Assembly: GCF_014841125.1 (NCBI RefSeq)
Contig: NZ_JACYTQ010000003.1
Coordinates: 1 to 64,000, forward strand
DNA: 64,000 nt
Origin: Echinicola arenosa
GTDB lineage: Bacteria; Bacteroidota; Bacteroidia; Cytophagales; Cyclobacteriaceae
Direction of reading: 5' to 3'
Part shown: positions 8,554 through 22,308 of the stretch, piece by piece
Position numbering within the stretch: the first letter of the stretch is position 1
How the letters are laid out: the number at the start of each line of letters is the position of its first letter
Position numbers and translations under genes: made by a program
Notes under the pieces: model-generated
Told to the model about the DNA's origin: nothing
Seen by the model: only the letters and a program-made list of their open reading frames with translations
The model's database searches: none

Positions 8554-8886
8554 ATGAATATCACAAGAGAGATTTTTAAAATGAGTGGCAAACCAGGGGA
8601 TTGTCTCAAGTTTATTTTACCGGCTGCTTTTGTCGGAAATGATGTTGTCGAACTTAGAAACCATGTTTTTGACCTGTCCAATGCTGGGTTTGATCAAGTG
8701 TATGTGGATGCCACGAAAGTCGAAAAGGTAGACCTTTCCGGGATCAATGAAATTATTCATATACATCATCAACTTTATCATGCCAATAGAGAGCTTGTTT
8801 TTCTTTATAGAAAATCGTCTGCTATTGAAGAGTGGGTTGATAGCACTTCGATGGATAATTTTGTAGCTACGGCGATTATTCCCTAA
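8554..8886 (+). CDS. STAS-domain protein (anti-sigma-factor-antagonist-like)
   Basis: A 110-residue protein made of one STAS domain. The pattern is a beta strand LKFILPAAFVG, then helix and strand FDQVYVDATKVEKVDLSGINEIIHIH, where the VDLSG stretch is the usual phosphorylatable Ser/Thr loop. STAS proteins act as small partner-switching regulators or as part of anti-anti-sigma cascades. No serine kinase (RsbW type) partner is in the window. The gene is encoded opposite the 3' end of the DUF4184 gene: 270 of its 333 bases overlap antisense. It also starts 32 bp from the divergent TPR gene. Its own promoter must lie inside the TPR gene. Proximity to the H-NOX signalling genes is suggestive only. 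Confidence 0.8.
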   Translation: MNITREIFKMSGKPGDCLKFILPAAFVGNDVVELRNHVFDLSNAGFDQVYVDATKVEKVDLSGINEIIHIHHQLYHANRELVFLYRKSSAIEEWVDSTSMDNFVATAIIP

Positions 8887-9594
8887 GGAATAGAGTATTC
8901 CCACCAAAACCATACTATACACTAAGCTTCCTAATGTGGACATGACAATGTCCCAGAAATTAAGATGCTCAGGCAATACTATTGCCCGAACACCTAGGGT
9001 GATCACGCTTACTAATAATATTTGTGCAAAATAAGGTGATCGAGACGTTGGAGTGATAAACGTAGAAGGGAGCTTTTTATAAAAGACAAAAATACCTAAA
9101 AGACCTATTATGCTACTGATGATTTGTAAGAGGAAGTAACAAGGAACTGGTTTTCCAAATATTTTGACAGTTATACTTAATAATGGTATTTGAAGTACAG
9201 CCCAGCCATCATAATGGGTGAATGCATCCAAGAATAAATGGGAAGCGATACCTACCACTAAGGAGAATATGACCATTACAGAATGCTTTTTGAAATAGCT
9301 TAACCAGTCGAAATCTACATACCGGATCAATTTGCTTTTGGCTGTTTCAGGTAATGCTTTGATGAAAAGGTCTCGAACCAATAAATGGAATAATAGACAT
9401 AAAATAATTCCTAGTGGAATATCCAATAATAAAATTCCCCAAGGGTGGTGCCCAATATTTTCACCTGCTTTCATTTTCAAAAAAAACTCAAAGTCAGGTA
9501 CCATGCTGCCCACAATAAGTGCTGTTGCAGAGAGTGGCTTCAATGCTTTTTTAAAAGGTAGAAGATAAACTGGATGAGATAAAGTAAAGGGCAT
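8617..9594 (-). CDS. DUF4184 family membrane protein with extended antisense tail
   Basis: A 325-residue polytopic protein starting MPFTLSHPVYLLPFKK, the hallmark of DUF4184. Conserved polar motifs are VGSMVPDFEFFL, IASHLFLDAFTHYDGW and others, in the style of LexA-inducible YdjM-like or PlsC-independent membrane hydrolases. The function is unknown. Membrane segments end around residue 236-245 (MVLVGILYSLGNN). The remaining roughly 85 residues are basic, unlike the family, and are read from the strand opposite the STAS gene. A natural stop may therefore have been lost, giving a read-through tail. The gene starts 17 bp after the single-domain response regulator and probably shares its transcript. 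Confidence 0.82.
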   Translation of the reverse strand: MPFTLSHPVYLLPFKKALKPLSATALIVGSMVPDFEFFLKMKAGENIGHHPWGILLLDIPLGIILCLLFHLLVRDLFIKALPETAKSKLIRYVDFDWLSYFKKHSVMVIFSLVVGIASHLFLDAFTHYDGWAVLQIPLLSITVKIFGKPVPCYFLLQIISSIIGLLGIFVFYKKLPSTFITPTSRSPYFAQILLVSVITLGVRAIVLPEHLNFWDIVMSTLGSLVYSMVLVGILYSLGNNRRSYKIIHRSAINPLFNSRRFSIKKNKLSIGMIKLMMYMNNFIDPGKVYLFDFRGIHIHLIKPSIGQVKNMVSKFDNIISDKSSR

Positions 9595-9611: not shown

Positions 9612-9983
9612 TTAGTTCAAACTGGTTAGAATTCGCGTTACTTCTGTTTTAGTAGCCCTACTTTTAAGCAGGTATTCGTGTGATCCAGACTCCATTGCGC
9701 TAATGGCTACATTGAGGTCTTCAAAAGAAGTACAGAAAACCACATTGGTGTTTGAATTTTTGCTTTTGATATGGGGGAGTGCTTCCAGTCCATTTGTTTC
9801 ATCCATTTGGTAATCAAGAAATACCAATGAAGGGTTAAGGTGAAGGTTGTCCAAACAGTCTTTACCATTATTGAAAAGCTGAATGTTTTTGAACCCCATG
9901 TCAGATAATACTTGGGAAAGTACAGATTGCCAAAACGGATCGTCATCGACAATAAAGATGGTTTTTTCTAAATGTGTTTTCAT
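9612..9983 (-). CDS. Single-domain response regulator (CheY-like)
   Basis: A 123-residue receiver domain with no output domain. The acidic pocket is IVDDDP, the phospho-acceptor is Asp57 (FLDYQMDE) and Lys107 (LLKSRA) completes the site. A switch Thr/Ser lies at VVFCTSFED. Such regulators act by protein contact or as an intermediate in a phosphorelay. It follows the H-NOX/HNOBA-kinase genes on the same strand but is separated from the kinase by 219 bp holding its own regulatory region. That region has a strong sigma-54-type promoter 26-41 bp upstream of the start and a TTCC-N7-GGAA dyad further up. It is probably a receiver for the HPt domain of the neighbouring kinase. Confidence 0.92.
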   Translation of the reverse strand: MKTHLEKTIFIVDDDPFWQSVLSQVLSDMGFKNIQLFNNGKDCLDNLHLNPSLVFLDYQMDETNGLEALPHIKSKNSNTNVVFCTSFEDLNVAISAMESGSHEYLLKSRATKTEVTRILTSLN

Positions 9984-10008: not shown

Positions 10009-10024
10009 TGCTATACACGTGCCA
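10009..10024 (-). promoter_or_regulatory. Sigma-54 (RpoN) promoter for the single-domain response regulator
   Basis: Read on the minus strand the sequence is TGGCACGTGTATAGCA, with the invariant GG (10022-10023) and GC (10010-10011) separated by exactly 10 bases, matching TGGCAC-N5-TTGCA with one mismatch. A transcript would begin near 9998, 15 bases before the ATG. An NtrC-type activator carrying GAFTGA is encoded 4 kb away. Confidence 0.75.
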
Positions 10025-10078: not shown

Positions 10079-10093
10079 TTCCAAATTTTGGAA
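10079..10093. promoter_or_regulatory. TTCC-N7-GGAA dyad, putative activator site 1
   Basis: TTCCAAATTTTGGAA has perfect 7-bp arms around one central base. It lies 56-70 bp upstream of the -24 element of the sigma-54 promoter, the position expected for an NtrC-family enhancer site. Two more sites with the same half-sites and spacing occur near the other genes of this island. Confidence 0.55.
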
Positions 10094-10202
10094 AATAATC
10101 TTGTTAGTGGAAAGGTTGTTGAATATTCAGGGAGATAAAAAAATATATAGGCAAACCGCGTCACCTACAAATTTAGATCAATAACCTAATAAGACTATCA
10201 AA

Positions 10203-13200
10203 TTACAACTGTATATGTTCTAATTCTTGGTTCACTTCCTCAATCACCTTATCAATTTTATTAATGGACTTTTGTATGTTTTCATCAGACATATTGCCTT
10301 CTTCTAATTTTCTAATGTCCTGTTGGATAGAAGTGATACCCAGGCTCGATATAGAGGGCTTCATCCTATGGGCTATTTTTTTGATTTGCTCTCGGTTACT
10401 ACTTTTATAAGCGTCTTTGATTTCCTGCATGGAGGAGGAGGAAAGCGTTTTGAAAAGATCAATCATTTTTTGTTGGAAAAGCTTATTTCCTGGAGATAAG
10501 GCTTTTAATTTTTCCAAATCATAGAGCTTTTCCGTCGAATCTGGAAGCTTTTTGTTTATACTTTCAGCTTTGTCTTTATCATTTCTTAGATCATTGTCTA
10601 GCCATTTACAAGTCGTTTCCAATAATTGGTATTCATCAAATGGTTTGGCCAGGTAATCATTCATTCCTTGATCCAAGAATTTGACATCATCACCCTTTAA
10701 AGCAAAGGCTGTCAAGGCAATGATGGGGATTTCTGTAATTTCTTTTTGTCGGATGATTTTAGTCGCTTTTAATCCATCCAGCATCGGCATTTGAATATCC
10801 ATAAGAATCAAATCAACTGGAAATTTCTCTACCTGATCAATGGCTTTTATCCCATTGTCTGCTTCTAATATTTTGGCGCCATAATTACTAAGGATAGTAG
10901 AGGCTACCAATCTGTTCATATCATTGTCATCAGTGACCAAAATTAACTTGTCCTTTAAAATGCTGGTGTCAACTGTGTTGGGTTTTGTTGTTGGTAAATT
11001 CTCCGCTTTTCCTTTGAGAAGTGGTAATAGGACAAAAACGGATGTTCCTTGGTTTTTGACACTCGATACTGTGATTTTACCGCCCATGAGTTCTACCAAT
11101 TCCTTACAAATACTCATGCCCAGACCAGTTCCTCCAAATTTTCTGGTGATTGAAGAATCTTCCTGGTGGAATTTTTTGAACAGGTTTTTAACAAATTCTT
11201 CTTCCATTCCTATGCCTGTATCCGAGATACCTATTTTGATGTTCTGAATATCATCTTGTTCAGATATCAATTCGAAGGTAATGTCTACATTTCCTTTTTC
11301 TGTGAACTTGATGGCATTGGAAATAAGGTTGAGAAGAATTTGATTGAGCCTGTAAGGATCGCCAATTAGGACATTGGAAATTTGGGAGTCAAATGTTGAG
11401 TTGGTGAATTTAATACCCTTTTCTTCAGCTTTATGTCCCATTACTTGCATGACCCTGGTCAGAACATGGTGAGGTTCGAAGCCGATTTCCTCAAGTGAGA
11501 GCTTACCGGCTTCGATTTTGGATAGGTCCAGTATGTCATTAATTATAATTAGCAAATTATCCGCAGCTGAATTAATAGTATTAAGATAAAAGGTTTGGTC
11601 TGAATCTAAAACTGTTTTGCGTAATTGATTGATCATTCCTGTTATTGCATTCATCGGAGTCCGAATTTCATGACTCATATTGGCAAGAAACAATTCTTTA
11701 GCTCTCGTTGATGCTTCAGCGTCTTCCTTTGCTTGGATCAGTTCTTTTTCTAATTCTTTTTGAGAGGTAATATCAAGGTGTATTCCCAAAGAACCAATCA
11801 ATTCCCCATCATCGTTATAATTAGGGGATCCGCTAACAAACCACCATTTCTTTTCTCCAGCTTTATTTTTAACGGAGATCTCAAAATTGTCCGAAATACC
11901 TTGATTTCTCAAGTTTCGCTTTTCTTCAAGTAATTGATGGCCCTTTTTTTCCAGCAGTAGATCAGTAGCTTTTCCTCCGTGAAGCTCTTTAAGAGAATAA
12001 CCCGCCATTTCACAAAAACGCTTGTTGGCATAAAGGATGTTTTCATGGTTATCCACTTCAAGAATGCCCAAGTTCATGTTGGTAATGATATTCCGATATT
12101 TCTCTTCCTGAATCTTTAGGTGTCTTTCTGAGTCTTTTCTTTCAGTAATATTTAAAATCATCTGTGTGAAAAGAAAGAGTAACTTCCTTTCTTTTTCTTC
12201 AAATTCATGAGTTTTTAAAACAGCATCAAAACCTATAAAACCTATCAGTTTATGGTTCCTGATCATGGGTAGTGTGATGAGACTTTTTACACCTTGTGGT
12301 TCAAGAATCCCTCTTAAACTATCGGGGCCTTCATCTGGAAGTAATGAGACATCGGGGATGTAAAAAGGTTCTCCTTTTGCATGCTTCTCTACCCATTGCG
12401 GAAAATAGGCAAGAGGAATCTGTTGTAGTTGGTCTATCTCGGGCCGAATACCTGCTCTGCACCACTCAAAAGTGTTTGAGGTTGTTTCATTACTGAAGTC
12501 GTAATCAAAGATATAAGCCCTATCTGCCTGCACAAACTCTCCGAGAGCTTCCAAAGATTTTTGGATGGCTTGATCCACATGCTCCAGTTCAATATTGATG
12601 TATTTTGAGGAAATATCGATCAGGATATTTTGAAGTTCAACTTCTTTTTTCAGCGCGAGGTCTGCATCTACGGAAGGAGTAATATCCCTGCCATAAATAT
12701 TGAAGTAATTGTTTTCTATTATTGGAATGACAATAAACGAATAGACTTTACCATCAGCTTCTATTTCAAAACTCTGTTTCTCCTCATTGAGTTGTAGTTC
12801 CTTGGATATTGTTTTCCAAAATTCCTTATGCGGATAATGCCTGTTTTTGTAGGTATAGGATATTAGCTTTGACGCAGATGGATTGGCCAGTAAGATGCTT
12901 CCATGGGTATCAATTCTTACTAATGGATCAGGGTTTTGCAAGGGAAACAAAGCTGTTTCTTCAATTTCTTTACTGGCCTTTTTGAGCTCATTCTTCTGTT
13001 TTTTTAATGTTTCAAGGACCTTTTTAAGGTCTTGGCTAATAGTTTCCTGATTTTTCAGGGAATGGAGTAAATCAAATGAGGGGTCGTGGTTTGCAAAATC
13101 GTGTATCGTAAGGGATTTTTCAGTAAGCTCTTCAATAGACTTAAACCATGGAGTCCCAATAAATAGTAATTGTTCTGAAGCGGAAATGACTTCAAATTGT

Positions 13201-13454
13201 CCTCTTAAATCAAACAGAGGATCCTCTGTATAATTAAGGATGACCATTTGATGGGTTAGCTTAAAAATATCGGCTGATTGCTCCTTAGCTGGAACAGGGA
13301 TTTTCACCTGAAATATTTCGGGAAAGGATTGGTGGAGAATTTCAGGATATAATTTTTTTAAGCTTTTGCCTAAAGCTGTAATTTTCAAGTCCTTTCCAAT
13401 GAGCATGTAAAAAGGAAAGATGTCGTTAAATTGCTCAAAATTAAATGAGATCAT
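10203..13454 (-). CDS. Hybrid sensor histidine kinase with H-NOX-associated (HNOBA) domain
   Basis: A 1083-residue soluble kinase without membrane segments. Residues 1-130 match HNOBA, the domain found in H-NOX partners and soluble guanylate cyclase: FNDIFPFYMLIGKDLKI, DLRGQFEVI, LLFIGTPWFKSIEELT. It is followed by the signalling coiled coil at about 135-165. Then come a PAS domain, a GAF domain (280-445), a second PAS (455-580), HisKA with MSHEIRTPMNA, HATPase (GTGLGMSICKE), a receiver (VTDDNDMNR, DIQMPMLDG) and a C-terminal HPt (IAHRMKPSISSLG). It begins 11 bp after the H-NOX stop codon, so both are made together. Known HNOBA kinases are inhibited by NO-bound H-NOX. The receiver and HPt suggest a phosphorelay to the downstream single-domain regulator. 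Confidence 0.93.
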   Translation of the reverse strand: MISFNFEQFNDIFPFYMLIGKDLKITALGKSLKKLYPEILHQSFPEIFQVKIPVPAKEQSADIFKLTHQMVILNYTEDPLFDLRGQFEVISASEQLLFIGTPWFKSIEELTEKSLTIHDFANHDPSFDLLHSLKNQETISQDLKKVLETLKKQKNELKKASKEIEETALFPLQNPDPLVRIDTHGSILLANPSASKLISYTYKNRHYPHKEFWKTISKELQLNEEKQSFEIEADGKVYSFIVIPIIENNYFNIYGRDITPSVDADLALKKEVELQNILIDISSKYINIELEHVDQAIQKSLEALGEFVQADRAYIFDYDFSNETTSNTFEWCRAGIRPEIDQLQQIPLAYFPQWVEKHAKGEPFYIPDVSLLPDEGPDSLRGILEPQGVKSLITLPMIRNHKLIGFIGFDAVLKTHEFEEKERKLLFLFTQMILNITERKDSERHLKIQEEKYRNIITNMNLGILEVDNHENILYANKRFCEMAGYSLKELHGGKATDLLLEKKGHQLLEEKRNLRNQGISDNFEISVKNKAGEKKWWFVSGSPNYNDDGELIGSLGIHLDITSQKELEKELIQAKEDAEASTRAKELFLANMSHEIRTPMNAITGMINQLRKTVLDSDQTFYLNTINSAADNLLIIINDILDLSKIEAGKLSLEEIGFEPHHVLTRVMQVMGHKAEEKGIKFTNSTFDSQISNVLIGDPYRLNQILLNLISNAIKFTEKGNVDITFELISEQDDIQNIKIGISDTGIGMEEEFVKNLFKKFHQEDSSITRKFGGTGLGMSICKELVELMGGKITVSSVKNQGTSVFVLLPLLKGKAENLPTTKPNTVDTSILKDKLILVTDDNDMNRLVASTILSNYGAKILEADNGIKAIDQVEKFPVDLILMDIQMPMLDGLKATKIIRQKEITEIPIIALTAFALKGDDVKFLDQGMNDYLAKPFDEYQLLETTCKWLDNDLRNDKDKAESINKKLPDSTEKLYDLEKLKALSPGNKLFQQKMIDLFKTLSSSSMQEIKDAYKSSNREQIKKIAHRMKPSISSLGITSIQQDIRKLEEGNMSDENIQKSINKIDKVIEEVNQELEHIQL

Positions 13455-13465
13455 ATTACATCAGT

Positions 13466-14011
13466 CTAAATCCATAATATGTCAAATAGGGCAGACCTTT
13501 CTGGGTGAAAAGGATCCGGGGTGATATTGATCTTCACTTGGCTACTAAATAACTTCGCAAGTCCTATCAGCATTCCATATACAAAATTCACCAATCCTGC
13601 TCTTTTGGATTTGTAGAGCAATTGAATATTGTTTCTTGAAATGGATGTAATGGCAAATTCAGGTGTTTGGATTTTCGGGTAAATCATCATTACCCTGGTA
13701 TGAAAAGCAGGGAGATTGATCAAAAACTCTCTTAGATCTTGTCCTCCAGTGGTCATTAAGGAGCCGTATCTTTCTTTAGAAAGTTTGACAATCCACCAAA
13801 TTCCAAGCTCTTTCAATAACTCATTTTGAGATTTTCCAATTACATTTCCCGCTGCTTCAATTAATTGAAAAGTAAGTTGGTCATCATAAACCTGGTTGAT
13901 CAAAAAGAAATCTATATCAAGATTAATCTGTTCCTTCGTATTGTCCCAACTCTCTTCACCATATTGGGTGATGATCAGGTCTTCGATTGCTTTATTAACT
14001 ATTCCGTACAT
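13466..14011 (-). CDS. H-NOX haem nitric-oxide/oxygen-binding sensor
   Basis: A 181-residue stand-alone H-NOX protein, the usual bacterial length. The start MYGIVNKAIEDLI is diagnostic. The proximal haem ligand is His104 (PAFHTRV), and the propionate-binding YxSxR motif is Tyr133-Ser135-Arg137. The conserved proximal Pro is at about 117. The distal position equivalent to the oxygen-stabilising Tyr140 of thermophilic H-NOX proteins is Asn142 here (GLVNFV), where NO sensors usually have Pro. A classic oxygen-binding tyrosine is therefore absent and NO is the likely ligand, with some doubt because Asn is polar. It is first in an operon with the HNOBA kinase. The upstream region carries dyads and a TTTTGGCAT that fits a -24 box, but the -12 box is poor. 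Confidence 0.95.
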   Translation of the reverse strand: MYGIVNKAIEDLIITQYGEESWDNTKEQINLDIDFFLINQVYDDQLTFQLIEAAGNVIGKSQNELLKELGIWWIVKLSKERYGSLMTTGGQDLREFLINLPAFHTRVMMIYPKIQTPEFAITSISRNNIQLLYKSKRAGLVNFVYGMLIGLAKLFSSQVKINITPDPFHPERSALFDILWI

Positions 14012-14121
14012 CGTATAATTGTCATTCTTTTGCTTAGAATAACATAAAACAATGCCAAAACTGTATTTGATGGCTAATAGAGGCTGAGGCCTTTTTAGGA
14101 GATACTGGCCTGAAGAGATTA

Positions 14122-14136
14122 TTCCGATTATTGGAA
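14122..14136. promoter_or_regulatory. TTCC-N7-GGAA dyad, putative activator site 2
   Basis: TTCCGATTATTGGAA, with the same half-sites and spacing as the site at 10079. It lies 111-125 bp upstream of the H-NOX start and about 65-80 bp above a TTTTGGCAT (-24-like) element at 14053-14060. Confidence 0.5.
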
Positions 14137-14146
14137 TTTATTCCAA
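14131..14146. promoter_or_regulatory. Perfect 16-bp palindrome overlapping site 2
   Basis: TTGGAATTTATTCCAA has 7-bp arms about a central TT and overlaps the TTCC-N7-GGAA dyad by six bases. The region lies between the H-NOX start and the end of the NtrC-type regulator gene. It could be a second operator half-overlapping the first, or part of the 3' end of the upstream transcript. Confidence 0.4.
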
Positions 14147-14156
14147 AAAGTAGAAG

Positions 14157-15506
14157 CTAAAGATCGCCTTCTTTGATCATTTTATAGATGGTGCTTTTAC
14201 CAATATCCAGTTGTTTGGCCGTGATCAAAACATCATTATCGTTCTTTTCCAAATAATATTTAATAATATCCTTGGTGTGTTCTTTTAGAGACTTTTGCTC
14301 CAATAAAAACATATCCTCCTTTGTGATATTATTAAAGGATATGTCATCTGCCATGATTTCTTTTTCATTTGACATGACTATTGCTAATTCAATGATGGCT
14401 TTGAGTTCACGGACATTTCCGGGATATTGGTACTTCAAAAGTTTTGCTTTGGCCTCTTTACTTAGACTGATCGGAGCCATTTGATTGTCTTTCGTAAACT
14501 CATCAATAAAGAATTTTGCCAAGATCAGTACGTCATTGTCTCTTTCACGCAGCGGAGGTAGGGAAATAGGTAAACCCATAATTCTGTAGAAAAGGTCTTC
14601 TCTAAATTCATTGCTTTTCACCTTTTCGGCTAGATTTTGATGGGTAGCCACTATGAGTCTTACATCAAGCTTTACTTTTTCATTTCCACCTACCCGAGTA
14701 ACTTCTCTTTCCTGAAGTACCCTGAGAAGTTTACTCTGGTTATTAAGGTCCAATTCGGCAATTTCATCCAAAAAGATAGTGCCACCCTCTGCTTCTTCAA
14801 ACTTGCCTATTTTGCGGGTAAGCGCTCCTGTAAAAGCACCTTTTTCGTGACCAAAAAGTTCACTTTCAATAAGCTCTTTGGGGATGGCTGCCATGTTCAC
14901 GGCTACGAAATTCTTTTTCTTTCTCTTGCTATTGTAATGGATAGCTTTGGCTACGACTTCTTTTCCGGTGCCTGTTTCTCCTGAAATGGAAACATTGATA
15001 TTTGTTTTGACAGCCTTTTCAATAAGAGTAAATACCTTTTGAAGTGAGGAGCTATTGCCGATGATGGATTTTTGAAAAGTAAATTTTTGCCCCAGTTCTT
15101 CCTTTAGACTTTCTACTTCCATTTTAAGGCTTTGATTTTCCCTGATTCTAATCACACTGTTCCAAAGCAGGTCTTTGGTGGAATCGTCTTTCAGTAAGTA
15201 ATCACTGGCCCCCATTTTTAACATTTTTACTGCAATAGCAATGTTCTCCTGTGAACTGATTACGATCACTGGCAAATCCGGTAGCACATCACGTATTTTT
15301 TTGAATAAATCATCTCCTTCCATGTCAGGCAATGAAAAGTCCAGTGTGATCAAGTCGGGTTTGAGGTGCAAATGCTTGATCAATTCTTTCCCGGTTTCGA
15401 ATCGCTTTACCTGATAGTCAGGATTAAGTCCTAAATGGTACTCTAAAATCTGTCCATACCAAGGGTCATCCTCGACTATAAAAATTTGAAATCCATTCAT
15501 TTTCAT
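14157..15506 (-). CDS. Sigma-54-dependent NtrC-family response regulator
   Basis: A 449-residue transcription activator. A receiver domain (Asp56 in ITLDFSLP) is followed by a short coiled linker and an AAA+ domain with Walker A GETGTGKE (176-183) and the sigma-54-contacting loop GAFTGA (223-228). Walker B is [13 protein letters not shown]. The last 40 residues hold a Fis-type helix-turn-helix ([22 protein letters not shown] region). All residues needed for remodelling sigma-54 holoenzyme are present. The cognate kinase is not adjacent unless it is the HNOBA kinase downstream. It lies 145 bp upstream of the H-NOX operon on the same strand and divergent from the polysaccharide operon. Its DNA target is plausibly the TTCC-N7-GGAA dyad found in three neighbouring control regions. 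Confidence 0.95.
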
Positions 15507-15595
15507 GTGGCAAAATAAAAGTTAATTACTGTGGCTATTCTGTCAACTAATATAGAAAAAATATAAATGAAGTGTTGTGCAAAAATGAGAATGTA

Positions 15596-15610
15596 TTCCA
15601 GAATATGGAA
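15596..15610. promoter_or_regulatory. TTCC-N7-GGAA dyad, putative activator site 3
   Basis: TTCCAGAATATGGAA lies in the divergent region between the NtrC-type regulator (90 bp) and the GT2 gene of the polysaccharide operon (145 bp). Half-sites and spacing equal sites 1 and 2. A TTTTGGCAT at 15686-15694 lies between it and the GT2 start, but a matching -12 GC is not seen, so the promoter served is uncertain. Confidence 0.5.
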
Positions 15611-15754
15611 AATTGGCAAGGTTAAAATATTTTAAAATACTGAAAATCAATATTTTAAAATTAGGCATTGCAATTGGGTAAAGGGTTTTGGCATCAGTGA
15701 TAAAACATTGACCTACATATTTAAAAGATTGATTTACAATTAAACCATTTAGTT

Positions 15755-16576
15755 ATGAACAACATTCTCAAGGAAGATTTTCAAAAGTTTGCGATTGTAG
15801 TCCCATGCTACAATGAAGAAGAAAGATTTCCATACCATCATTTTTTGACTTTTGCCAAAATGAACCCTGATGTGCTTTTGTGCTTTGTCAATGATGGCAG
15901 CAAGGACAACACTTCCGGAGTATTGAGAGGTATACAAGTACAGTCACCTGAAAATATTGTGGTGCTGAACCTAAAGCAAAATGGAGGTAAATCAGCAGCC
16001 GTTAGACATGGAATGCTTTATATGCATTCAAAACATAACGTGCAGTTGTTGGGCTTTTTGGATGCAGACTTGGCTACTACACCCGAAGAGTGGTTGCAGA
16101 TGGCTATGTACAAAGAAAACTATCCTAAGTTCGGAGCTATAGTGGGTAGTAGAATCCAACGTTTGGGAGCAGATATTAAAAGAGATGATAATAGATCTTT
16201 ACTGAGCAACATTGTAAAGAGAGCCATAAAAAGCATTTTGAAAACCAACTTTCAAGACACTCAATGTGGTGCAAAGATATTTCACAGAAGTCTAGTGCCT
16301 TATTTATTTTCAGAGCCCTTCAAGACTCCCTGGTTATTTGATGTGGAAATTTTCTTGAGATTACAGCAAAAATTCGGAAAGACCACCTTGCAAAGAGGTG
16401 TACTGGAATTTCCGTTGATGCAGTGGACTGAAATAGGAGGTTCTAAACTAAAGTTTAAAGACTCTTTTAAAATACCCTTTCAATTATTCCAACTCTATTA
16501 CACGTATCGCGTGTCGCCATCCATGGTTTCCAAATCAGATGCTGCACCACTAATGTCAAAAAAAGTTGCGAGTTGA
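15755..16576 (+). CDS. GT2 glycosyltransferase, dolichyl/undecaprenyl-phosphate hexosyltransferase type
   Basis: A 273-residue GT-A fold enzyme starting VVPCYNEEERFP, with the nucleotide-binding FVNDGSKDNT. The metal-binding motif is FLDADLATTPEEW, and FQDTQCGAKIF plus WLFDVEIFLRL are typical of the ALG5/dolichyl-phosphate-glucose synthase subgroup. It has no membrane segments, whereas many bacterial homologues have two, so it probably makes a lipid-linked or directly attached hexose at the inner membrane face. First gene of the polysaccharide operon, 180 bp before manC. Product identity is confident at family level; donor sugar unknown. Confidence 0.9.
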   Translation: MNNILKEDFQKFAIVVPCYNEEERFPYHHFLTFAKMNPDVLLCFVNDGSKDNTSGVLRGIQVQSPENIVVLNLKQNGGKSAAVRHGMLYMHSKHNVQLLGFLDADLATTPEEWLQMAMYKENYPKFGAIVGSRIQRLGADIKRDDNRSLLSNIVKRAIKSILKTNFQDTQCGAKIFHRSLVPYLFSEPFKTPWLFDVEIFLRLQQKFGKTTLQRGVLEFPLMQWTEIGGSKLKFKDSFKIPFQLFQLYYTYRVSPSMVSKSDAAPLMSKKVAS

Positions 16577-16681
16577 TCACCCTCAATTCTCTTGAGAATA
16601 AACACTTAAAGCTGTACGATGGAAAAGTTGACTTATCACCCAATAATTAACAATTCAATTACACTTTAAGCTGTGCTTTGA

Positions 16682-16699
16682 TCGGGGCTGCGGCCCCGA
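16682..16699. promoter_or_regulatory. GC-rich hairpin in front of manC
   Basis: TCGGGGC-TGCG-GCCCCGA is a 7-bp perfect stem with a 4-nt loop inside AT-rich DNA, 57 bp upstream of manC. No T-run follows, so it is not a good terminator; it may be an mRNA-stability or attenuation element. Confidence 0.35.
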
Positions 16700-16756
16700 C
16701 TAGAGCTTTCAATTAATGAATCCAAATTTACATAAGACCTTTTAAAAGATAAGATC

Positions 16757-21738: not shown

Positions 21739-22308
21739 ATGATGAAGACCTTATTCATTGGGTTGATTTGTCTAGTATGCAGCATCTTTTTCCTCATGGG
21801 AAATGGAAGATACAAGGAATCTATTCTACCAGTATTTCTTCAGCAAGATGAGATTGTTAAAGCGCATGAGACACAAGTTGAAATAACAGTCCATTCTCCC
21901 TATGTCCCTAACAGCTTTCAACTGGAACAGTTCAAAAAAGATTATTCAGGTGTCTGGGCCCATCTTAATCATTTGTATTCAACAAATGATGTAATCACCG
22001 GTAAAGAGTATTATTCAGAATCTTGGTTCAAGCAATTGGCCAATCAACATACAGGCAGCTTGGATAATGGCGTGAAAAGAAAAGATCTTTTTCATGATGT
22101 ACATCTGATGAACTGGTCAACTGATGGATTGGTCTGCACAGCGGTTGACAGTTCTGCTGTTTTGGAATATGATTTTCCAAAAAATGGAAAAAAGTTTACC
22201 CTGGCAACTGTGGCAATGGTCTTTTTGTACCAAGGGGACCATTGGAGAATAGATGGCATAAGATTTATAGAAGAAAAAGAAATTATTGCATCAAAAAAAT
22301 TGAAGTAA
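21739..22308 (+). CDS. Exported NTF2-like protein of the polysaccharide operon
   Basis: A 189-residue protein with an N-terminal hydrophobic anchor or signal (LFIGLICLVCSIFFLMG). The rest fits an NTF2-like cone: helices containing FKKDYSGVWAHLNHLYSTND and strands ending in VFLYQGDHWRIDGIRFIEE. The C-terminal Trp-Arg-Ile-Asp pattern is similar to the NTF2-like part of the 1007-residue membrane protein two genes upstream. No catalytic residues are evident. It is tightly packed between the lipoprotein and GT4 genes, with two-base gaps on both sides. Confidence 0.65.
   Translation: MMKTLFIGLICLVCSIFFLMGNGRYKESILPVFLQQDEIVKAHETQVEITVHSPYVPNSFQLEQFKKDYSGVWAHLNHLYSTNDVITGKEYYSESWFKQLANQHTGSLDNGVKRKDLFHDVHLMNWSTDGLVCTAVDSSAVLEYDFPKNGKKFTLATVAMVFLYQGDHWRIDGIRFIEEKEIIASKKLK

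Follow-up and report, generated by a model that had tools for sequence, protein, structure and literature searches.

Conserved dyads spaced regularly from sigma-54-like boxes in an H-NOX island of Echinicola arenosa, with two candidate small RNA families among the proposed outputs

Introduction

Three dyads of the form TTCC-N7-GGAA lie in the control regions of an H-NOX island of Echinicola arenosa, and they raise the question of which protein acts at them and what it controls. The window, meaning the whole 64,000-nt stretch that was analysed (contig NZ_JACYTQ010000003.1, positions 1 to 64,000; G000:C14:1-64000), belongs to a 5.39-Mb genome in 20 contigs (G000; other genomes are likewise given as G numbers). 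An earlier note, made from the letters of the window, had proposed that the dyads are enhancer sites of the NtrC-type regulator encoded between the second and the third. It saw in them a small regulon consisting of a lone receiver, the H-NOX/kinase operon and either the regulator itself or the polysaccharide operon. Comparison with relatives supports the proposed enhancer role through the recurrence of the dyads before the same genes, their co-occurrence with the regulator gene and a spacing of 51–54 bp. We consider it likely that the NtrC-type regulator at 14157–15506 uses the dyads as upstream activating sequences and through them drives sigma-54 outputs including two RNAs. The predicted regulon is wider than the note proposed, as two structured RNA families lie at the ends of its units.

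NtrC-family enhancer-binding proteins consist of a receiver, an AAA+ domain with the GAFTGA motif and a helix-turn-helix (HTH), and they use a dyad site, frequently present twice, that precedes -24/-12 promoters and is also found at their own gene. Much of this plan is seen here, with a different site sequence, an H-NOX setting in Bacteroidota and RNA outputs. The regulator has a receiver and a sigma-54-interaction AAA+ domain with an intact GAFTGA (Pfam, alignment), and its C-terminus has an HTH-like end seen by eye, though there is no Pfam HTH match. The genome contains rpoN (one PF04552 match, 197.5 bits), and the HNOB protein adjoins a kinase bearing HNOBA (Pfam), which is the gene arrangement of an H-NOX signalling pair.

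Conservation of the dyads

The three dyads were confirmed and all lie between open reading frames (ORFs), at 95 bp upstream of the receiver ORF (start 9983), 110 bp upstream of H-NOX (14011), 89 bp upstream of the ntrC-type gene (15506) and 144 bp upstream of the glycosyltransferase family 2 (GT2) gene (15755). What had been described as a perfect 16-bp palindrome at 14131–14146 (TTGGAATTTATTCCAA) turned out to be two 7-bp arms flanking a TT that is not palindromic. Here dyad 2 meets a degenerate second dyad (14141–14155), and the two form a 19-bp tandem of which both members are complete in the relative G008 (TTCCATTATTTGGAA and TTCCAGATAGTGGAA). A better consensus than TTCC-N7-GGAA is TTCCA-N5-TGGAA, frequently doubled at 19–20 bp.

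H-NOX searches matched 3 of 11 same-genus genomes and 35 of 295 family genomes at E <= 0.001, many of the latter being remote, and neighbourhoods were fetched in three batches of 2, 14 and 13 stretches (four of the last being single G000 sites). An H-NOX scan of genome contigs gave 14 stretches, none of them confirmed, and a receiver scan gave 11 remote loci that were not used further. From seven genera, 39 inter-gene island regions were chosen, with borders set by ORFs or homology starts and in four cases by the start of RNA 1 (+/- ~20 bp), and all 5,376 palindromic dyads with 4-base arms and spacers of 0–20 were compared in them. The neighbourhoods of G068, G016, G168 and G205, the G258 receiver site (L112:10342), and the LVIVD and other unlinked sites were left out of this set.

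TTCC-N7-GGAA ranked first of the 5,376, occurring in 32 of the 39 regions and in six genera; TCCA-N5-TGGA, which is the same site, was present in 31 and the best unrelated dyad in 12. The seven regions lacking the dyad were the G218 receiver flank (degenerate), the G006 H-NOX flank (one mismatch), a 6-base gap in G198 and the ntrC flanks of G198, G011, G073 and G166. Two dyads (L102:6656 and L023:11178) were flagged as within an ORF since the mechanical ORF begins upstream of the homology-based start, and G184 and G218 each have two dyads, the first of them overlapping the ntrC frame at its 3' end. On this conservation, the three dyads of the window are predicted to be functional sites.

The regulator was matched at E <= 1e-100 in eight of the 11 same-genus genomes, three with H-NOX and five without, and all eight carry the dyad upstream of ntrC, including the five that lack H-NOX. 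Within the genus, the dyad therefore appears to go with the regulator gene rather than with H-NOX. In the five H-NOX-less genomes, and likewise in G006 where ntrC has a locus of its own, the protein after ntrC is a kinase remnant, corresponding to residues ~634–1083 of the window kinase and covering HATPase, receiver and Hpt (in G003 only 976–1067, Hpt). A tandem pattern derived from the island sites (the dyad, 4 bases, TTCY) matched 19 places across the 11 genomes, against 1 for a reversed control. Eighteen of these lie outside genes in seven ntrC-bearing genomes (none in G003), with one G008 tandem counted twice, and the remaining match, the sole one in the three genomes without ntrC, is inside an ORF of G007. 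One tandem match, at G005:C4:73803, has no counterpart.

Frequency alone would not single out these sites. The window holds 6 matches to TTCC-N7-GGAA where 1.94 are expected (1 of 100 shuffles reaches 6), and the genome holds 207 against 155 for a reversed control, so the loose motif alone is weakly specific. TTCCA-N5-TGGAA has 23 genome matches against 17 for the control, dyad 2 (G for A) not being among them, and 5 of the 23 lie outside long open frames: two island sites, C12:482894, C12:548403 and C19:66729. The other 18 are in long open frames, and the earlier note had named a motif as common inside genes as upstream of them as a finding that would speak against its proposal. A genome-wide regulon defined by either motif alone was rejected, both being too common. 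The same two counts, 207 against 155 and 18 of 23, would suit an origin of the three dyads as chance matches in A+T-rich DNA; conservation in 32 of the 39 regions and the fixed spacing described below contradict such an origin, to which we give a negligible probability. It is conservation together with the distance to a sigma-54-like box, not frequency, that raises the dyads above chance. A further TTCCA-N5-TGGAA at 22175–22189 of the window lies within an ORF, is roughly kept in G008 (L023:17745) and was taken as coding.

Distance to sigma-54-like boxes

The sigma-54 consensus used for scoring was TGGCAC-N5-TTGCW. Scores were above those of shuffled sequences in the receiver flanks (n=6, Fisher p 2e-6) and in the RNA flanks (n=4, p 0.005; in G006 the top-scoring site was a different one). 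When a loose box was anchored at the dyad end (R-G, 10 bases, G, T at -12), it started 51–54 bp from the dyad in all 20 receiver, stand-alone RNA and GT2 flanks, with a -12 element that is frequently GT, GA or GG in place of GC. Compared like for like, the box is at 53±1 in 18 of the 20 flanks, against a mean count of 0.29 and a maximum of 2 of 20 at distances outside 48–58. All nine GT2 flanks have the loose box at 52–54 bp (G003 and G009 carrying AG for GG), and it is also present in the three divergent flanks that have no GT2 (G002, G005 and G006).

Elsewhere, box-like sequences lie further away. The five H-NOX flanks with a full dyad all have TGGC at 61–64 bp, with poor -12 parts, and the G006 H-NOX flank, with its mismatched dyad, has TAGC at 59 bp. 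On the receiver-like side in genus g65, TGG...TTTGC is found at 62 bp in three of three cases. In G198, G011 and G073, a dyad with a box at 66–67 bp precedes a large secreted-looking protein, 1,425–1,463 codons within the stretches examined, that replaces the receiver (L055:11650, L057:11726 and L060:4391).

Two faces of the third dyad

The earlier note had assigned dyad 3 to either the regulator gene or the polysaccharide operon, and this resolves to both. The GT2 side has the sigma-54-like box. On the ntrC side no sigma-54 score was above shuffles (n=11 flanks, p 0.51), and beside the dyads is TATATTAG, which we take, from the element's consensus, to be a housekeeping-type -7 element. Because there is no sigma-54 box and this element adjoins the dyads, ntrC is probably autoregulated. 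In G006, H-NOX and GT2 are apart from ntrC, yet the dyad and box are retained before GT2, so GT2 is probably a target in its own right.

The arrangement at ntrC would also suit a regulator that mainly represses at the dyads, the sigma-54-like boxes being incidental. The available text of PMC8738867 describes such a case, HnoC of Shewanella oneidensis, a repressor relieved by phosphorylation; there too an H-NOX-linked response regulator acts on its own hno genes, as is proposed here. HnoC is reported as a repressor, whereas the sites here have the geometry of a sigma-54 activator: GAFTGA is intact and boxes lie at 51–54 bp in 20 of 20 flanks, even where no protein gene follows. We regard predominant repression as quite improbable.

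Two candidate small RNAs

In G002, G005, G006 and G009, no gene comes after the dyad and box that lie past the kinase remnant; in its place are ~125 conserved nt ending in a terminator-like hairpin. A covariance model built from these four copies (R1) and searched in the 11 genomes found three more, in G008, G010 and G000, all of them downstream of the receiver gene; their E values range from 7e-13 to 8e-12, and the best match after them has 0.0035. R1, built without the window sequence, matches the window at 8958–9087 (-) with E 8e-12, and the model that includes it (R2) matches 8956–9080. Of the eight genomes with ntrC, all but G003 carry candidate RNA 1, and none of the three without ntrC does. 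Outside the genus, three weak matches (E 0.002–0.005 among 295 genomes) were taken as chance.

Each of the seven copies has a better fold than shuffled sequences have on average (z -2.2 to -8.2; window copy -5.0). A first hand-drawn structure was out of register and had no support; the structure used instead was derived from the members' own folds. In the seven-sequence alignment with this structure, 7 of 30 pairs changed on both sides, and none of 500 shuffles reached the paired fraction or the covariation score, while 19 reached the count of pairs.

A second candidate, RNA 2, lies beyond the divergent box in G002, G005 and G006, immediately after it in G005 and ~100 nt on in G002 and G006, and homologs follow GT2 in the window, G008, G006, G003, G009 and G010. 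These nine copies align, with a near-invariant stretch GTTG..ATCACCC; 8 of 19 pairs changed on both sides, and the covariation score was above 500 of 500 shuffles, 21 of which reached the count of pairs. A model of the nine copies (R3; training copies E <= 6e-13) was searched over the 295 genomes and found two new copies, G005:C17:154257 (E 3e-9) and G006:C32:64464 (E 5e-6). These are 125 bp (G005:C17) and 261 bp (G006:C32) from unlinked tandem dyads that had earlier been found by pattern alone, and each of those dyads has a sigma-54-like box at 54 or 53 bp on the side facing the RNA. That two separate searches converge here is the strongest single argument for taking dyad, sigma-54 box and RNA as parts of one system. 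Weak matches to R3 (E 6e-4 to 0.05), which include ntrC-less G001 and G004 (E 0.003 each), were left uncounted.

For neither RNA 1 nor the window copy of RNA 2 did any Rfam family, Qrr or other, reach its gathering score. The sequence TTATCAC is common to RNA 1 (9053–9059, -) and RNA 2 (16633–16639, +) of the window and occurs 10 times on the two strands of the window; its presence in both RNAs may be chance or a shared seed.

We give an even chance to the further proposal that, among the outputs of the regulon, the most conserved are the two RNAs, which would be new trans-acting families placed where the receiver and GT2 units end and kept with enhancer and promoter after loss of the protein genes, RNA 1 of G000 doubling as the C-terminal part of the DUF4184 ORF. 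Another possibility, which we hold to be real though a minority one, is that both RNAs are conserved terminators or 3' untranslated elements of their mRNAs only and do not regulate in trans; each has a terminator-like hairpin as its last element, and each closes a protein unit in the window. Against this, no protein gene lies between the box and RNA 1 in G002, G005, G006 and G009, or between the box and RNA 2 in G002, G005 and G006, and the near-invariant GTTG..ATCACCC of RNA 2 is not needed by a terminator.

In G000 and G008, RNA 1 overlaps codons ~169–212 of the DUF4184 ORF in sense. Comparison of the two genomes showed identical codons for 30 of 37 conserved amino acids in the overlap, compared with 67 of 111 in the part preceding it (p 0.027), and conserved third positions in 36 of 44 versus 94 of 168 codons (p 0.0016). 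Third positions are also conserved in the tail past codon 236 (67 of 84), probably because an opposite-strand frame overlaps there. From ~codon 167 onward the protein alone has no DUF4184 match, so the frame may have run into the RNA gene; a fragment beginning 15 residues earlier scores 18.6 bits, below the DUF4184 cut-off, and the whole protein nevertheless aligns to the end of the profile. The opposite-strand frame is a 110-aa ORF at 8554–8886 (+), antisense to the tail of the DUF4184 ORF (8617–8886), with a weak STAS_2 match (E 0.007), and codon-position conservation at 8617–8886 better fits the plus-strand frame.

Table 1. Features of the H-NOX island (window coordinates unless a locus is given)
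Feature	Position	Strand	Basis or remark
DUF4184 ORF	8617..9594	-	among 11 same-genus genomes in 2: G000, G008
Candidate small RNA 1: three hairpins, last terminator-like; sense, within DUF4184 ORF	8956..9080	-	covariance models R1, R2
Lone receiver (Response_reg, 123 aa)	9612..9983	-	Pfam 78.7 bits
Sigma-54-like box TGGCACGTGTATAGCA, 54 bp from dyad 1	10009..10024	-	shuffle p 0.003
Dyad 1 TTCCAAATTTTGGAA, proposed enhancer of lone-receiver unit	10079..10093	.	receiver-upstream also in G008, G006, G010, G184, G151
Hybrid kinase: HNOBA, GAF, PAS, HisKA, HATPase, receiver, Hpt	10203..13454	-	Pfam
H-NOX (HNOB, 181 aa)	13466..14011	-	Pfam 153.7 bits
Weak sigma-54-like box TGGCATTGTTTTATGT upstream of H-NOX; distance to dyad 2, 64 bp	14042..14057	-	shuffle p 0.63
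Dyad 2 TTCCGATTATTGGAA, proposed enhancer of H-NOX/kinase operon	14122..14136	.	window sequence
Degenerate second dyad TTCCAAAAAGTAGAA, 19 bp past dyad 2	14141..14155	.	complete in G008
NtrC-type response regulator: receiver, sigma-54-interaction AAA+, GAFTGA, C-terminal HTH-like end	14157..15506	-	Pfam 237 bits; alignment
TATATTAG in ntrC leader, read as housekeeping-type -7 element	15547..15554	-	7/8 same-genus leaders; G003 has TATATTGA
Degenerate second dyad, ntrC side of dyad 3	15577..15591	.	TTCTAAATTCTGTA-like stretch kept in G002, G005, G006, G009, G010
Dyad 3 TTCCAGAATATGGAA, between ntrC and GT2	15596..15610	.	ntrC-upstream in 8/8 same-genus ntrC-bearing genomes
Sigma-54-like box AGGCATTGCAATTGGG facing GT2, 52 bp from dyad 3	15663..15678	+	loose definition
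GT2, first gene of polysaccharide side	15755..16576	+	Pfam 63.7 bits
Candidate small RNA 2, following GT2, with a closing stem, the near-invariant stretch GTTGAYTKATCACCC and a terminator-like hairpin	16601..16715	+	alignment, covariation
Kinase remnants after ntrC	L102:8192-9490, L103:7521-8843, L104:7868-9163, L105:7541-8845, L106:7699-9018, L107:8241-8573		

Evidence weighing against the proposed regulon

Several results in addition to the matches in open frames weigh against the reading of the dyads as enhancers of the adjacent regulator. The 39 regions compared are related sequences, not independent draws, and the loose box found in 20 of 20 flanks was defined after part of the data had been seen, with flanks that also come from related sequences. 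For two of those receiver flanks, G151 and G218, the anchor was placed manually at a second or degenerate dyad; measured from its full dyad, G151 gives a distance of 71. Sigma-54 scores in the H-NOX flanks (n=9) were not significant (Fisher p 0.25), and the pair types of RNA 1, at 18, were not above shuffles (mean 19.7). No dyad was found upstream of the ntrC genes of G198, G011, G073 and G166, which are of other genera, and no TTCC-N7-GGAA in the remote H-NOX neighbourhoods of G068, G016, G168 and G205 (H-NOX 28–37 % identical). Conversely, G264 and G276, of another genus, have the dyad before H-NOX, with a best regulator that is only 57 % identical and differs in its HTH end (IGKSSLYRY vs IGKSTIYKM).

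A tandem dyad also lies ~250–280 bp before a lipoprotein-like gene, presumably one with LVIVD repeats, in G000 (C12:482894-482908, L146), G008, G009 and G010 (L151, L163 and L153), the gene having a different neighbour in G009. There was no sigma-54-like box at the usual distance from these dyads in any of the four genomes, which is a further point on the same side, and the gene was rejected as another sigma-54 regulon member though its tandem dyad is conserved.

These observations could be accommodated if the dyads were operators of a different DNA-binding protein, for example a repressor of nitric oxide (NO) or polysaccharide genes, with ntrC merely one of its targets. The dyads of G264 and G276 without a close ntrC ortholog, the four ntrC genes without a dyad and the LVIVD dyads without a box would all fit, and the placing of a dyad over a housekeeping promoter at ntrC would agree with repression. 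The 51–54 bp between dyad and box is, however, the geometry of an enhancer, and the tandem pattern is distributed with ntrC (18 matches in the eight genomes that have it, vs 1, in an ORF, in the three that do not). No other regulator gene was seen beside all of the sites, without a systematic search for one. A different DNA-binding protein seems unlikely, and we retain the NtrC-type regulator as the protein that would act at the dyads. From its domain composition and the conservation, spacing and co-occurrence described, we infer both its binding and the direction of control.

Discussion

The proposed circuit would begin with H-NOX, where NO or another ligand would alter the hybrid kinase (HNOBA...receiver-Hpt), which in turn would set the phosphorylation of the regulator. 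Once activated, the regulator would bind TTCCA-N5-TGGAA, often as a tandem pair 19–20 bp apart, and drive sigma-54 polymerase at -24/-12 boxes 51–54 bp away, or about one helical turn further at H-NOX. The predicted outputs that code for protein are the lone receiver and the GT2 polysaccharide gene, to which the H-NOX/kinase operon can probably be added. The other predicted outputs are the two RNAs, RNA 1 lying downstream of the receiver and RNA 2 following GT2. The ntrC gene would probably be under its own control. The ligand, the dependence on NO, the transcripts and the function of the RNAs are inferred.

The closest parallels are found in Vibrio. In Vibrio fischeri, as given in the available text of PMC12369376, HnoX-controlled HahK and SypF dictate the activity of SypG, and SypG is a sigma-54 activator that drives syp and the small RNA Qrr1 via upstream sites (PMC10162802, available text). 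The HnoX-HahK/SypF/SypG system so described resembles the circuit proposed for the island in that an H-NOX-controlled kinase leads to a receiver-AAA+ sigma-54 activator and on, through upstream sites, to polysaccharide genes and a small RNA. It differs in phylum and in its site, TTCTCANNNTGMDWN (PMC10162802) rather than TTCCA-N5-TGGAA. Here, moreover, Hpt is fused to the HNOBA kinase and the RNAs, which match no Rfam family, are at the ends of protein-coding units. The SypG/LuxO-Qrr circuit is marked by an RNA of the Qrr family, and neither candidate RNA is one by Rfam. The island system works, in our reading, like that of V. fischeri with other sites and RNAs, and we do not place it in the Qrr family.

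In Vibrio parahaemolyticus, H-NOX feeds into the pathway of the Qrr RNAs through HqsK and LuxU, according to the available text of PMC8738867. This H-NOX-HqsK-LuxU path has in common with the circuit proposed for the island an NO sensor, a hybrid kinase, a phosphorelay and an RNA output. The V. parahaemolyticus quorum-sensing relay is, by that description, shared with other kinases, whereas here the regulator is encoded beside H-NOX. Among the matches listed in the literature search, as far as their available text goes, there was no H-NOX regulon from Bacteroidota and no sigma-54-driven small RNA from that phylum; PMC12316311 deals with sigma-54 in this phylum, but its available text contains neither the term 'H-NOX' nor the term 'small RNA'.

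The coordinates of the sites, boxes and RNAs make this reading directly testable. If it is correct, the Vibrio type of arrangement, which couples an NO sensor and a sigma-54 activator to polysaccharide genes and a small RNA, also occurs in a distant phylum, where both the sites and the RNAs are different ones. The relatives would then show RNA outputs that have outlived the protein genes to which they were attached.

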